Source: an uncultured Coriobacteriaceae bacterium (GTDB taxonomy: Bacteria; Actinomycetota; Coriobacteriia; Coriobacteriales; QAMH01). Taken from it: DNA of 11,377 nucleotides. A program made the translations under genes and the position numbers. The notes beneath the pieces are model-generated. The model was not told the DNA's origin. It saw only the letters and a list, made by a program, of their open reading frames with translations, and did no database searches. Positions 6,498 to 10,754 of the stretch are shown here, piece after piece (position 1 is the stretch's first letter; each line of letters starts with the position of its first letter). The DNA is taken from contig CACZQA010000017.1 in assembly GCA_902783175.1 (NCBI GenBank), forward strand, positions 1 through 11,377, written 5' to 3'.

Positions 6498-6744
6498 TAG
6501 AGAAGGGGTCGGGAAGAGGCTCGTGTGCTGGCTGTGCGGGCCTCCTGAGAGCGAGCGGAATCCCGGCCCGCAGAACAGCAAGACGCGGCAATGCAAAGTT
6601 GCTAGCGTTTGTCAAGTTATGGGTATTGTTTGTAGCCAATTTTTAAAACCGCAGGTCAGAGGCTTGCAGGTAAAATTCGCGTTCACAGGTCCTCCACATA
6701 CGTTTGCGCTTCGAACGCGGTTTCGCGTAGCCTTTTTGACCATT
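6498..6744 (+). other. structured intergenic region/leader before the RlpA-like gene
   Basis: No gene is supported here. It contains several stem-loops. TGCGGGCC (6535-6542) pairs with GGCCCGCA (6565-6572), and this is extended by GCTG (6531-6534) with CAGC (6576-6579). A second is ACGC-GCAA (6583-6591) with TTGC-GCGT (6599-6608). A third, ACGCG/CGCGT (6715-6719 with 6724-6728), is followed by T5 (6733-6737) just before the start codon. The stretch 6600-6680 is markedly AT-richer and is where a promoter would be expected (TTGTCA at 6609-6614; TAAAAT at 6671-6676), but the two are not correctly spaced. It matches no riboswitch I can recall, including the ydaO c-di-AMP class that precedes some RlpA/Rpf genes. 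Confidence 0.5.
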
Positions 6745-7311
6745 ATGAAGCATTCAAACGCAGCACGACTCATCGCGACGCTCGGCATTGCCGGCGTCAT
6801 GGCATTCGGAAGCTTGAACGCTCCGATGGCAGCGCTCGCCGACGAGCAAGACTCGCAGAGCGCACAGGACACGAGCGGTCTTGTCACCGCCGTCACACGC
6901 GACCTGCCCGGTCAGCTCATGGGCAAGGTCAATCAGATCACCGAACAGCAATGCAGCATGGAGAGCCTGCTCGCCGCTGGCAGCGCGGTCGACGCGGACG
7001 CCTACCGCGCGACGCTTCCCGACTCGGTCTCGTGGAAGAGCTGCGGTGTGAGCACGTATGGCCTTGGAGATGGGCTCATGGGCTCCAATTGCTCCGACGG
7101 CTCGAAGGTCACCACGACGTCCATGGGCGTCGCGCACAAGACGCTGCCGCTCGGCACCTCCATCCAGATCTCGTGCAACGGCAAGGTTGTCAACGCGACC
7201 GTACGCGACCGCGGGCCGTTCGTGGCAGGCCGCGACATCGACCTGCAGCCCGCCGTGGCGAGCGCGCTCGGCTTTAGCGGGGTCGGCAAGGTCGAGTACC
7301 GCGTCTTGTAG
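6745..7311 (+). CDS. secreted RlpA-like double-psi beta-barrel protein
   Basis: Predicted exported cell-wall protein of 188 residues. An N-terminal signal peptide (basic KHSNAAR, hydrophobic core about 8-24) has a likely signal peptidase I site at ALA-DEQ (residues 30-33). There is no lipobox, so unlike RlpA it is not a lipoprotein. After a low-complexity linker the C-terminal double-psi beta-barrel covers about residues 99-188. It carries His131 in AHKTLPLGT and Asp155 in VRDRGPF, the hallmarks of the RlpA family, some of which cleave denuded peptidoglycan glycans. Cysteines at 70, 100, 116 and 144 could form disulfides. No SPOR domain is present. ATG 6745 is chosen because the signal peptide begins there, although no Shine-Dalgarno site is visible. 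It opens a closely packed four-gene run. Lytic activity is unproven. Confidence 0.85.
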   Translation: MKHSNAARLIATLGIAGVMAFGSLNAPMAALADEQDSQSAQDTSGLVTAVTRDLPGQLMGKVNQITEQQCSMESLLAAGSAVDADAYRATLPDSVSWKSCGVSTYGLGDGLMGSNCSDGSKVTTTSMGVAHKTLPLGTSIQISCNGKVVNATVRDRGPFVAGRDIDLQPAVASALGFSGVGKVEYRVL

Positions 7312-7320
7312 CCACCTCAC

Positions 7321-7806
7321 GTGAAGTCCCTCGCAATCAGGCATATCCAGGTCAAGCGTGGCGCCCTCGTTCTCGAGGTGGTAGCACCGCTCTCGACGAT
7401 GCGCGTGCCGGCGGACGCCGCGCGCCGCATGCTCGAGTTGCTCCCCAACCTTGCGCACCATGTCTGCGTGAACGACAACGGCGATACCTTCGGAGACGAG
7501 ATCGCGGGCACCGAAGCCGCGCATCTGCTCGAGCACACCATCATCGAGCTGCAGGGGAAAGCGTACGCGAGCTGGGGCGCGAGCCGTCCGCTGTTCACGG
7601 GGCGCACCTCGTGGAAGAGGAGCCTTGCCGGGGCGCGCTCGACCGGCGAGTCCCTCATGCTCACAACTGTGACGTTCGTGAATGATTTCGTCGCGCTGCA
7701 GGCTGCCGAGTTCGCATGCGGTATCATCGAGTGGGCGTACGATCCCGATACACACACCGCGCCTGACATTGCCGCGCTCGTCGATCGTCTCGCGCAGCTG
7801 GTCTGA
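7321..7806 (+). CDS. stand-alone protein resembling the cyanophycin synthetase (CphA) N-terminal domain
   Basis: Soluble protein of 161 residues. From memory of CphA sequences, its core follows the CphA N-domain pattern: LLPNLAHHVC (40-49), then a GT (63-64) leading into HLLEH (68-72) and ELQ (77-79), then GRT (94-96), then a beta strand TTVTF (115-119) and a final helix. In CphA this domain precedes the ATP-grasp domain, which here is encoded by the next gene. The HxxEH motif is the one seen in M16-type zinc peptidases, and I recall a cryptic hydrolase site of this type in some CphA N domains. The third zinc ligand here is unclear (Asp122 or Glu130). The start is GTG 7321, nine bases after the RlpA-like stop and in the same frame, without a clear Shine-Dalgarno site; ATG 7399 is the alternative. 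Substrate unknown. Confidence 0.7.
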   Translation: MKSLAIRHIQVKRGALVLEVVAPLSTMRVPADAARRMLELLPNLAHHVCVNDNGDTFGDEIAGTEAAHLLEHTIIELQGKAYASWGASRPLFTGRTSWKRSLAGARSTGESLMLTTVTFVNDFVALQAAEFACGIIEWAYDPDTHTAPDIAALVDRLAQLV

Positions 7807-7852
7807 GCGCGCGCTGCACCTGCCTGTGCGGCGTGAGGAGAGGAGCCGAAGC

Positions 7853-8818
7853 GTGCCCTACAAGGTTGCAGTACTCATCGACGACGCTTCCCGCACGAGT
7901 CCGCTCGCGCAGGAGGCAAAGCTCAACATCTGCGACGCGCTCGAGCAGGCGGGGCACGAACCCGTTTTGTTCGAGGCGAACTCCCAGCTCACGGCGATGC
8001 TGCGCCATGAGCGCCCCGATGTCGCCCTCAACGCGACGAGCGGCAAATCCGCCGTCGACGGGTCGATACAGTCGCTTATGGACCTGCTCGGCATCCCCTG
8101 CATCGGCAGCTCGGCGAGCATCCTGCGCCAGGCGTGCGACAAGAGCGCGCTTCCAACGATGCTGCGGCGTTTCCAGTTTGGAGAATACGGCGATGCCGAC
8201 TTCGTCTTGGGCGTGAGGATTCCGAAGAGCGTCTACGAGGGGCTCGGGGGATCACAGGCGCTCGACCTCATCGCGCACCGCATTCCGGCGGGCTATCCAC
8301 TCGTCGTGCGTGCCGGTCACCAGGGCACCAACGTCAAGCCCATCAAGGTCGACGACCCAGCGCAGCTCGGGGTGGCGCTCGCGATCGTCTACGACGCCGA
8401 CCACGACGCGCTCGTGGAAGAGTGGGTCGACGGCGTCCACCTTGCGGTTGGCGTGCTGGGACACGGCCCCGAGGCGTTTGCGCTGCCGCCGGTCGAGCTC
8501 ACCTTCGACGAGGACGGAACGACGGTGGCCACGCATGCCCCCGTGCGCATGGAGTCGCTTTCGGGCGACGAGGCGAACGCGCAGGGCATCCGCAGCGAGA
8601 TAGAGCGCGCCGCGCTCGAGGTACACCGCGCCTACAGCGCCCGTGACCTCTCGTGCATCGACATCATCTGGGACGGCGCGAGCGCGCGGGTGCTCGAGAT
8701 AAACCTCGCCCCCTCGCTCGCCCCCTCATCGGGCTTCACCCTCTCGTGCGATACGGCTGGTATCAGCCTGAAGGCACTGCTCAACGAGCTCATCGAGCAA
8801 GCGATTGCTCGCGGATAA
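7853..8818 (+). CDS. D-Ala-D-Ala-ligase-like ATP-grasp enzyme
   Basis: Cytoplasmic carboxylate-amine ligase of the ATP-grasp superfamily, 321 residues, close to Ddl in length. The N-terminal domain runs to about residue 95. DGSIQSLMDLLGIPCIGSS (69-87) matches the EDGxIQGLLELLGIPYVGS region of Ddl. CDK (95-97) corresponds to the Ddl MDK. VEEWVDG (188-194) matches the VEEFIEG segment. The metal-binding triad is intact: Asp270 in CIDIIW, Glu282 and Asn284 in LEINLAPS. Differences from true Ddl include HGPxGED replaced by NATSGKSAVDG, the VKP lysine replaced by Arg153 (VVRAG), and EINTxPG reading EINLAPS. It is therefore probably not the housekeeping Ddl but a ligase with another acceptor. GTG 7853 is chosen for its strong AGGAG seven bases upstream. 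Confidence 0.82.
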   Translation: MPYKVAVLIDDASRTSPLAQEAKLNICDALEQAGHEPVLFEANSQLTAMLRHERPDVALNATSGKSAVDGSIQSLMDLLGIPCIGSSASILRQACDKSALPTMLRRFQFGEYGDADFVLGVRIPKSVYEGLGGSQALDLIAHRIPAGYPLVVRAGHQGTNVKPIKVDDPAQLGVALAIVYDADHDALVEEWVDGVHLAVGVLGHGPEAFALPPVELTFDEDGTTVATHAPVRMESLSGDEANAQGIRSEIERAALEVHRAYSARDLSCIDIIWDGASARVLEINLAPSLAPSSGFTLSCDTAGISLKALLNELIEQAIARG

Positions 8819-8834
8819 CAAGTGGAGGAGCATC

Positions 8835-10322
8835 ATGTACTGTTTTGAGAAACTGGCTGACGGGCTGTACTGGATCGGCGGAGAAGACGCGCGCCTCGGC
8901 AAGTTCGAGGGCCTGATCCCCGTGCCGTATGGCATGTCCTACAACACCTACCTCATCAAAGACGAGAAGACGGTCCTCATCGACACGATCGACCGCGCGG
9001 TCGAGGAGCGCTTCCTCACCTCGCTCGACTATCTGATCGGCGACGGCACGCTCGACTACATCATCACCCAACATGCCGAGCCCGACCATATGGCCACGCT
9101 CGGGTCGGTCGCCGCGCGCTACCCCGAAGCGAAGATTCTCGCCTCGGCCATGTGCAAGCGCATGGTCTCGCAGTTCTTCGACGACGAGCTCGCCGCGCGC
9201 GTCGAGGTGATCGACGACGGCGACACACTCGAGACGGGCAAGCGCACGCTTAAGTTCCTGAGCGCGCCCATGGTCCACTGGCCGGAGGTCATGATGACCT
9301 ACGACGCCTACGACAAGACGCTGTTCTCGGCGGACGCCTTCGGCATGTTCGGCAGCCTCGACGGGCGCCTGCGCGATATCGACCGCGACTTCGAGCAGGA
9401 CATGCTGCCCGAGATGCGCCGCTACTACGCGAACATCTGCGGCAAGTACGGCGCTCAAGTCGACGCCATCCTCGACAAGATCGAGCCGCTCGACATCGCG
9501 CGCGTGTGCACGCTGCACGGTCCCGTCGTCGAGCACAGCGCCGTGCAGGCAATCCACTCCTACCGCATCTGGGCGGGCTACCAGCCGGAGGTCAAGTCCG
9601 TCGCGATCATGTACGCCTCCATCTACGGCGGCACGCGCGACGTGGCGGAGAAGCTCGCGTTCCTGCTGACCGGCCTGGGCGTCGGGGGCGTCAAGATCTA
9701 CGACGTCAGCGAGGTCGACGCCAGCTACCTGCTCGCCGAGGCCTACCGCGTGAGCAACGTCGTGCTCGCCTGCGCGACCATGAACATGGAGATGAACCCC
9801 AAGATGGCAGACCTGCTCGAGGTGTTTGCGACGCACGGCCTGAAGAACCGCAAGTTCTCGCTCATCCAAAACGGCTCGTGGGCACCGCAGGCCGGCAAGC
9901 GCATGCTCGAGGCGCTCGAGAAAGTCCCGGGCACGCAGATCGTCGGCGATATGTTCACGATCAAGTCGCGCATGAAAAACGAGCAGGAAGGCGACCTCGA
10001 GAAGCTCGCCCAGGCTATCGCCGAATCGGTCGGCGCCGTCGTGACGGCATCCGAGGTGGAGCAGCGCGAGAAGGCTCCCGAGGCAAGTCCCCTGCCCGCG
10101 GGCTTCGTGCCCCCTGTCGCCCCGCCCAAGATCAACGACCCCTACGGTGCGGGGGCGGCAACCAAGCCGACCCAGGTCATCGAGGTCTGGAAGTGCACGT
10201 ACTGCGGCTACCAGGTCGAGGTCCCGCGGGGCACCGACATGTCGAACTTCACCTGCCCGGTGTGCCTGAAGGTGGGCATGTTCAAGAAGATCCGCGAGAA
10301 GATCGTCGAAGTCGAGTCATAA
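8835..10322 (+). CDS. flavodiiron protein (A-type flavoprotein) with C-terminal rubredoxin-like domain
   Basis: Reduces O2 to water and/or NO to N2O, protecting anaerobes. The protein is 495 residues. The metallo-beta-lactamase-like domain carries a complete diiron set: His80-x-Glu82-x-Asp84-His85, His148, Asp167 and His228. Spacings of 62, 18 and 60 residues match the family pattern exactly. A flavodoxin domain (about 254-400) has the FMN loop ASIYGGT (261-267). A proline/alanine-rich linker (about 412-447) leads to a zinc-ribbon/rubredoxin-like module with Cys454, Cys457, Cys474 and Cys477. Only 16 residues separate the two CxxC pairs, shorter than in classical rubredoxin and more like the rubrerythrin tail. 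ATG 8835 has GTGGAGGAG just upstream and lies 16 bases after the ATP-grasp stop. The electron donor and the O2/NO preference are not readable. Confidence 0.95.
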   Translation: MYCFEKLADGLYWIGGEDARLGKFEGLIPVPYGMSYNTYLIKDEKTVLIDTIDRAVEERFLTSLDYLIGDGTLDYIITQHAEPDHMATLGSVAARYPEAKILASAMCKRMVSQFFDDELAARVEVIDDGDTLETGKRTLKFLSAPMVHWPEVMMTYDAYDKTLFSADAFGMFGSLDGRLRDIDRDFEQDMLPEMRRYYANICGKYGAQVDAILDKIEPLDIARVCTLHGPVVEHSAVQAIHSYRIWAGYQPEVKSVAIMYASIYGGTRDVAEKLAFLLTGLGVGGVKIYDVSEVDASYLLAEAYRVSNVVLACATMNMEMNPKMADLLEVFATHGLKNRKFSLIQNGSWAPQAGKRMLEALEKVPGTQIVGDMFTIKSRMKNEQEGDLEKLAQAIAESVGAVVTASEVEQREKAPEASPLPAGFVPPVAPPKINDPYGAGAATKPTQVIEVWKCTYCGYQVEVPRGTDMSNFTCPVCLKVGMFKKIREKIVEVES

Positions 10323-10330
10323 GGCGCGAG

Positions 10331-10371
10331 CTGCCCCACGCGGGCATTTTGACCTGCCGCGCGTGGGGCAG
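10331..10371 (+). terminator. long hairpin without T-tract after the flavodiiron gene
   Basis: CTGCCCCACGCG (10331-10342) is perfectly complementary to CGCGTGGGGCAG (10360-10371). Inside, GGCA (10343-10346) pairs with TGCC (10355-10358), with one bulged G and a TTTTGACC loop. It begins nine bases after the stop codon. TGATGG, not a T-run, follows, so it is a probable tail-less terminator or 3'-end stabiliser. Confidence 0.55.
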
Positions 10372-10427
10372 TGATGGTACTCTTAGAGCTGCTAGATATT
10401 CGTTTTGAAGCGAAGGGCGTGAACATA

Positions 10428-10754
10428 ATGAGCAAGGCTGTTTCCTTTATCGCAGGTGCCGCTGTCGGTGCGGTCGCAGCGCTGATGCTGAGCCCCAATT
10501 CCGGCGAGGAAAACCGCAGGATCGTCACCGAGAAGGCGGCGTACTACAGCTCTCATGGCGACGAGCTGTTCCAGCAGGCAGCTGATGCCGTCCGCGACAA
10601 GGTCAAGAGCGCTCCCGAGGCAAGCGTCGCGACTGCAGACGATATCAGGGAAAAGATCAACGCCGCCCGTGACCGCATCGCAGAGCAGGTCACCCGCAAT
10701 CAGGCGGCCCAGCAGGTCGAGGCAGACGTCTCCGACGTCGCCGCAGCGGAGTAG
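10428..10754 (+). CDS. YtxH-like small membrane-associated protein
   Basis: 108-residue protein. The N-terminal hydrophobic glycine/alanine segment (about residues 5-21, IAGAAVGAVAALML) is followed by SPNSGEENRR. This is the YtxH pattern of a short membrane helix then a P-x-SG-x-E-x-R-like turn. The rest (30-108) is a charged, alanine-rich, probably coiled helix typical of this poorly characterised, often stress-associated family. ATG 10428 has AAGGG ten bases upstream. An in-frame GTG at 10371 would add 19 residues reading out of the hairpin and is rejected. A PRC-barrel gene follows 45 bases later; no specific biochemical role can be assigned. Confidence 0.75.
   Translation: MSKAVSFIAGAAVGAVAALMLSPNSGEENRRIVTEKAAYYSSHGDELFQQAADAVRDKVKSAPEASVATADDIREKINAARDRIAEQVTRNQAAQQVEADVSDVAAAE

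Follow-up and report, generated by a model that had tools for sequence, protein, structure and literature searches.

The closest described counterpart of the first gene considered here is the N domain of cyanophycin synthetase (CphA), for which a peptidase activity was demonstrated only in 2022, according to the report on CphA1 (PMC9262961). In that report the ligands of the metal, tentatively zinc, are C59, H79 and H83, with E82 as the general base and H57 nearby, and the motif is given as Cx19HxxEH (PMC9262961). By contrast to the CphA1 N domain (PDB 7txv, 7lg5), the protein described here, N, is stand-alone, comprises 161 aa and has no fused ATP-grasp or Mur-ligase modules. The product of the adjoining gene, G, shares the fold of DdlB-type D-alanine-D-alanine ligases, from which it differs in having lost the substrate residues and in belonging to an organism that has its own canonical Ddl. 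In relatives a third gene, A, stands between N and G, a position that sets it apart from the aminoadipate/kynurenine aminotransferases (PDB 1x0m, 3aov, 2egy), with which its product shares the PLP fold I and the conserved Lys and Arg; in the window this gene is missing. A literature search on cyanophycin synthetase and stand-alone ATP-grasp proteins, on Ddl pseudoenzymes and on Ddl-aminotransferase operons in Coriobacteriia returned no such system, which agrees, weakly given that most subscription journals lie outside its coverage, with the statement of the earlier note that the layout is undescribed. For the CphA N domain as a metallopeptidase, PMC9262961 was the sole paper returned from 2022 onwards, and two papers bring up cyanophycin along with Eggerthella, in a single mention each.

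The window is the whole stretch of 11,377 nucleotides that was analysed. As the earlier note had proposed, it contains a stand-alone CphA-N-like gene adjoining a Ddl-like ATP-grasp gene, and the N profile and the Ddl fold of the second protein confirm this assignment. The features of the locus are the following:

6523..7311, + strand: RlpA-like (DPBB) protein upstream of N, by domain match
7321..7806, + strand: N, a putative zinc metallopeptidase of the CphA-N type encoded by a gene of its own, 161 aa, by homology to the CphA N domain
7459..7467, + strand: H47 and C49 of N, corresponding in CphA1 to H57 and to C59, which binds the metal, by conservation (CphA1 roles from PMC9262961)
7522..7536, + strand: H68xxE71H72 of N, the HxxEH metal-binding and general-base motif, by conservation in N proteins
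7807..7852, + strand: empty slot where relatives hold gene A (PLP aminotransferase of about 415 aa), from the N-A-G order in relatives, including L067 of the same family
7835..7845, + strand: purine-rich stretch 5' of G, a putative ribosome-binding site judged from the sequence
7853..8818, + strand: G, diverged Ddl-like ATP-grasp protein with a decayed substrate site, 321 aa, by PF07478, Ddl fold and 6 of 14 Ddl positions
8579..8623, + strand: helix AQGIRSEIERAALEV, G residues 243-257, a weak candidate for a contact surface, picked as the best conserved stretch in eight G proteins without A
8654..8656, + strand: Cys268 of G, replacing the catalytic Arg of Ddl (R255 in E. coli DdlB), by alignment with E. 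coli DdlB

The N protein of the window has the fold of the CphA1 N domain and carries the C-H-H metal site together with the HxxEH motif, in the form C49-x18-H68xxE71H72, where the spacer is x18 versus x19 in CphA1; the residues at the site are H47, C49, F57, H68, E71 and H72. C49, H68, E71 and H72 are invariant in 55 of 55 N proteins and H47 is present in 54 of these, while a 37-member alignment agrees on the conserved site residues. The pattern C-x18/19-HxxEH is found in 66 of 68 N genes, the remaining two having C..HxxEH with a shorter spacer, and a looser pattern recovers the motif in 73 of 73 N genes of a second set of loci. Among N proteins, which otherwise diverge, conservation is thus highest at the active site. 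For N, dN/dS amounts to 0.18-0.35 (point estimates by Nei-Gojobori, six pairs). Judged by spacing alone, the position of R70, the substrate-binding arginine of SuCphA1, would fall on D59/E60 in the window N and not on an arginine. The site is the zinc-peptidase site as described for CphA1 in PMC9262961, and by analogy C49, H68 and H72 would hold the metal and E71 would act as the general base, so that zinc binding and peptidase activity may be expected of the window N. Free-standing and putatively cytoplasmic, N is probably a zinc metallopeptidase that uses the fold of the CphA N domain; no signal peptide was seen by eye in the window N. LuxS was not accepted as a relative, since a Foldseek probability of 0.33 came with a TM-score of only 0.22, and a search of the genome contigs with N alone found no relative.

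As an independent gene, the CphA N-domain fold with its site exists in at least 332 of the 396 Coriobacteriia genomes sampled (PF18921 matches, one per genome; 271 of the 314 good-quality genomes; 137 of 153 genera), a lower bound because G009 and G058, although unmatched by PF18921, do contain N in their loci L109 and L181 according to the N profile. Among the PF18921 matches listed, which are about half of those in the class, the frames are shorter than 500 aa. In a sample of the phylum the family was matched in 41 of 296 genomes, 21 of which are Coriobacteriia. The 20 matches from outside the class score at least 113 bits; 18 of these lie in frames of at least 924 aa, the size of CphA, and two in shorter frames, one of 235 aa and one of 262 aa with a stop. 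Within these 296 genomes a stand-alone N occurs only in Coriobacteriia. Should the N domain act alone, this would suggest where the CphA module came from and indicate an unassigned peptide pathway in Coriobacteriia. In the family of the window all seven genomes have N, arranged as N-A-G in L067 and L174, as N-G in the window, and as N only in L068, L175, L176 and L177.

The order of the genes was compared in 80 loci from 75 genomes (79 loci and the window, chosen for holding N or G, so that the shares are not class frequencies), with N-A-G in 41, N only in 18, A-G in 10, N-G in 8 including the window, G in 2 and G..N in 1. The two genes paired by the earlier note often occur together in Coriobacteriia, as N-A-G or N-G. 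Some of the N-only and A-G-only loci are two halves of one genome, and in at least two A-G loci (L108, L192) A is cut at the contig end. A second set, chosen by intact-G patterns (the best 80 of 86, so that its shares are not class frequencies either) and overlapping with the first, e.g., in L204/L069, L212/L073 and L280/L072, shows N-A-G in 73 of 80 loci, many of them from Eggerthellaceae by their titles (Gordonibacter pamelaeae, Eggerthella sinensis, Adlercreutzia equolifaciens and others). The exceptions are two loci cut at the contig start (L219, L236), two in which A lies some 6 kb upstream, where the stretch ends (L237, L241), two with two G genes each (L238, L247) and one with G only (L228). 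The class includes gut genera such as Gordonibacter, Eggerthella and Adlercreutzia, in which N likewise clusters with an aminotransferase and an additional Ddl.

Of ten neighboring proteins examined, eight were products of gene A and were identified as PLP aminotransferases, the other two being other genes, among them the flavorubredoxin-like neighbor in the N-only locus L068; L071 also has A. The closest PDB relatives of A are 1x0m and 3aov (364 bits) and the 2-aminoadipate transaminase (255 bits), and the PLP Lys and the MR Arg are kept in 51 of 51 sequences. A MocR/PdxR-type regulator was considered, because the best NCBIfam matches are MocR models, but the alignment starts past their first ~90 residues; A is read as an enzyme and not a regulator, since it is without the MocR N-terminal part and the solved relatives agree. 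Judged from these sequence features, A is an intact aminotransferase, predicted to act on amino acids and 2-oxo acids in the manner of the aminoadipate/kynurenine type. In the genome of the window, which is 83% complete, no close copy of A was found, the best match having 26% identity; a relocation of A within this genome was rejected on these grounds, which at this completeness are not proof.

The window G matches PF07478 and adopts the Ddl fold (model pLDDT 93.1; all 50 PDB matches listed are Ddl), whereas it scores 93.2 bits with the curated NCBIfam model for Ddl (NF002378), below the cut-off of 243; the one deep-branching G tested (L085) passes this cut-off with 328 bits. The same genome contains a separate canonical Ddl, and the window G is an extra, not the housekeeping, Ddl. 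With the C-terminal 199 residues of Ddl as query, 117 of 119 genomes gave a Ddl-type match, canonical Ddl and deep-branching G being mixed in this count. A search for G likewise mixed true G with canonical Ddl at weak E-values. A canonical Ddl in every genome is not claimed, because the single matches of G089, G105 and G117 (E 5.5e-30 to 2e-38) sit at the level of G copies, that of G105 being its G gene.

For a comparison of the substrate sites, G proteins were aligned with E. coli DdlB and scored at 14 Ddl positions; E15, H63, S150, Y216 and R255 are catalytic or substrate residues of DdlB. The changes in the window G are E15T, H63S, K144R, S150T, E187H, deletion of K215/Y216, R255C, G276S and L282G (DdlB numbering), which leaves T, S, T, a deletion and C at the five catalytic or substrate positions; K97, E180, D257, E270, N272 and S281 are retained (6 of 14). 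With the residues that hold both amino-acid substrates lost, the window G would no longer work as a Ddl. It may still bind ATP/Mg and have a new ligase activity, since the six retained residues are in place. Among 32 further G proteins from Coriobacteriales, of which three are degenerate, K215 is replaced by R in 30 and Y216 by L, M or I in 28, while 8 of 10 deep-branching G proteins have kept Y216. The intact G is read as a second, non-housekeeping Ddl-type ligase, whose acceptor pocket is altered by these substitutions in most Coriobacteriales copies.

The decay of G tracks the absence of A. When both N and A stand alongside, 39 of 40 G proteins keep at least 12 of the 14 positions, whereas all eight G proteins next to N without A keep at most 8 (L181 2, L121 3, L180 5, L122, L178 and the window 6, L179 7, L194 8); decay thus affects 8 of 8 without A versus 1 of 40 with N and A (Fisher p 2e-8, the loci being treated as independent). 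The eight proteins come from six genera and three families. The count with A omits L174, in which G is cut by the contig end, and neither group includes L183 (contig edge, 6 of 14) and L191 (9 of 14), which have neither N nor A in view, or the G proteins of the ten A-G loci that show no N, which keep 11 to 14 of the 14 positions. A gene tagged as G in L105, about 5 kb from N, has 14 of 14 as well as K215 and Y216 and was read as canonical Ddl, and L104 and L106 were left out of the analysis (two-base placeholders). The single exception to the link between A and G is L102, where G (6859-7794) keeps 4 of 14 positions and has a very long branch with A and N alongside. In the tree, L102 and the eight G proteins without A group at a bootstrap of 80. 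In the AU test, monophyly of f1 or of f3 was not rejected singly (0.30, 0.53), while both together were rejected at 0.03, a value flagged for an insufficient number of replicates. The G copies without A may share one origin, so that the Fisher value overstates the support. G copies that lack N and A directly alongside are those of L191, L238, L247, L228, L237 and L241; the genome from which L191 stems (G189) also has N-A-G (L101).

The earlier note had regarded the pair as the first two modules of cyanophycin synthetase, and asked of the 7321-7806 product whether it resembles the CphA N domain. For N this homology holds, as the N profile matches all four CphA frames (1e-18 to 1e-21). The G-family profile, however, finds the canonical Ddl of the window genome (7.7e-85) but none of the four CphA frames at E<=10, one of which, from L202, visibly continues from the ATP-grasp part into a Mur-like start; the window G is therefore not an ATP-grasp module of the CphA type, and the reading as a split CphA was rejected. 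No Mur-ligase-like module, fused or adjacent, is found among the scanned proteins flanking the pair on both sides. A Mur ligase as the missing third gene was dismissed, because in relatives an aminotransferase gene fills the place between the two. That N and G form a free-standing two-part enzyme that makes or extends a peptide as the N and G domains of CphA do is therefore very improbable, despite the homology of N and the adjacency of the genes: G resembles Ddl, A encodes an aminotransferase, and for the window copy peptide synthesis or extension, as the earlier note had suggested, is unlikely because most Ddl substrate residues of G are gone.

On balance, and with modest confidence, we favor the view that the pair is a reduced N-A-G cluster in which G, no longer catalytic, acts as a partner of N, and N keeps its own site intact. 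In the complete cluster A would supply an amino acid, the intact G would join it to a D-Ala-like partner, and N would cleave the resulting peptide. In the lineage of the window A appears to have been lost and G to be left without the residues for the two amino-acid substrates; G would most likely have been retained as a non-catalytic partner in contact with N, which would work without A and without catalysis by G. A wider proposal, which we put forward tentatively, is that N-A-G represents a so far undescribed system by which Coriobacteriia make and cut dipeptides, and in which, after loss of A, G became a catalytically dead subunit that binds or controls N, the window being one such pair. The decayed yet retained ligase beside N lends itself well to testing the idea of a pseudoenzyme partner. 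In genus g34, three species of which have a decayed G and no A, dN/dS of this G is 0.13, 0.14 and 0.17 (point estimates by Nei-Gojobori, three pairs), compared with 0.04-0.10 for intact G in four genera (one pair being near-saturated, dS 3.23). The decayed G of g34 is still under purifying selection, and the constraint is relaxed relative to intact G, because dN/dS, though low, exceeds that of intact G; for the window's own G, selection would be presumed from this other genus. Helix 243-257 is absent from deep-branching G and from canonical Ddl and can be put forward weakly as a candidate contact surface for N. As a contact specific to N it was rejected, since it occurs in many intact G proteins, including the intact L187 without N in view, and is missing from several N-A-G loci.

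It is less probable that the window G is a decaying relic on its way out, without present function. The absence of A, the lost substrate residues, the restriction to N in four of the seven family members and the higher dN/dS of G without A than of intact G would all be expected of a relic, but all eight such copies have retained long open frames, and the low dN/dS in g34, albeit in a genus other than that of the window, argues against it. Somewhat unlikely, too, is a change of substrate, in which case G would still act with N, as an ATP-grasp ligase that joins a new carboxylate/amine pair. The six retained residues, the intact 321-aa frame, the confident Ddl-fold model and the 201 member sequences in the 90% identity cluster of the window G are in line with such an enzyme; by contrast, E187 has become H, K144 R and R255 C, and the K215/Y216 loop is deleted. 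Furthermore, other copies without A have lost different ATP/Mg residues (L181, for example, keeps 2 of 14), which indicates loss rather than one new function.

The non-catalytic partner reading is compatible with a further, rather doubtful possibility that concerns the full cluster. Vancomycin-type trios (vanH-vanA-vanX) consist of an enzyme making the second residue, an altered Ddl and a zinc dipeptidase. N-A-G resembles them in this general idea of precursor enzyme, altered Ddl and zinc peptidase, and could, by analogy only, change or police a D-Ala-D-X pool for the cell wall. The intact Coriobacteriales G, which keeps most of the Ddl site with K215 and Y216 changed, the zinc-peptidase type of N, and RlpA-like and polysaccharide-deacetylase genes among the neighbors would suit such a role, whereas A, which we take to be of the L-amino-acid aminotransferase type in its stereochemistry, would not.

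Elsewhere in the window, no tRNA genes were found and a scan for promoters and terminators gave nothing exceeding chance. A 351-aa protein at 37-1092 is weakly similar to mannose-1-phosphate guanylyltransferase/isomerase, far under the curated enzyme cut-off. Directly 3' of G, at 8805-10322, lies a gene for a flavorubredoxin-like protein with ODP lactamase, flavodoxin and rubredoxin-like parts, a relative of which is found directly 3' of N in the N-only locus L068, and a YtxH-like protein is encoded at 10371-10754. Among 59 neighborhoods, in which clusters were named from one representative each, an RlpA-like cluster occurs near N or G in 10, a YtxH-like cluster in 33 and a PRC-barrel cluster in 32, the latter two mostly downstream of N or G. 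Several N-only loci (neighborhoods L087-L103) have a CNNM/CorC-type gene, then N, followed by YtxH, PRC-barrel, polysaccharide deacetylase, MgtE or Nramp genes.
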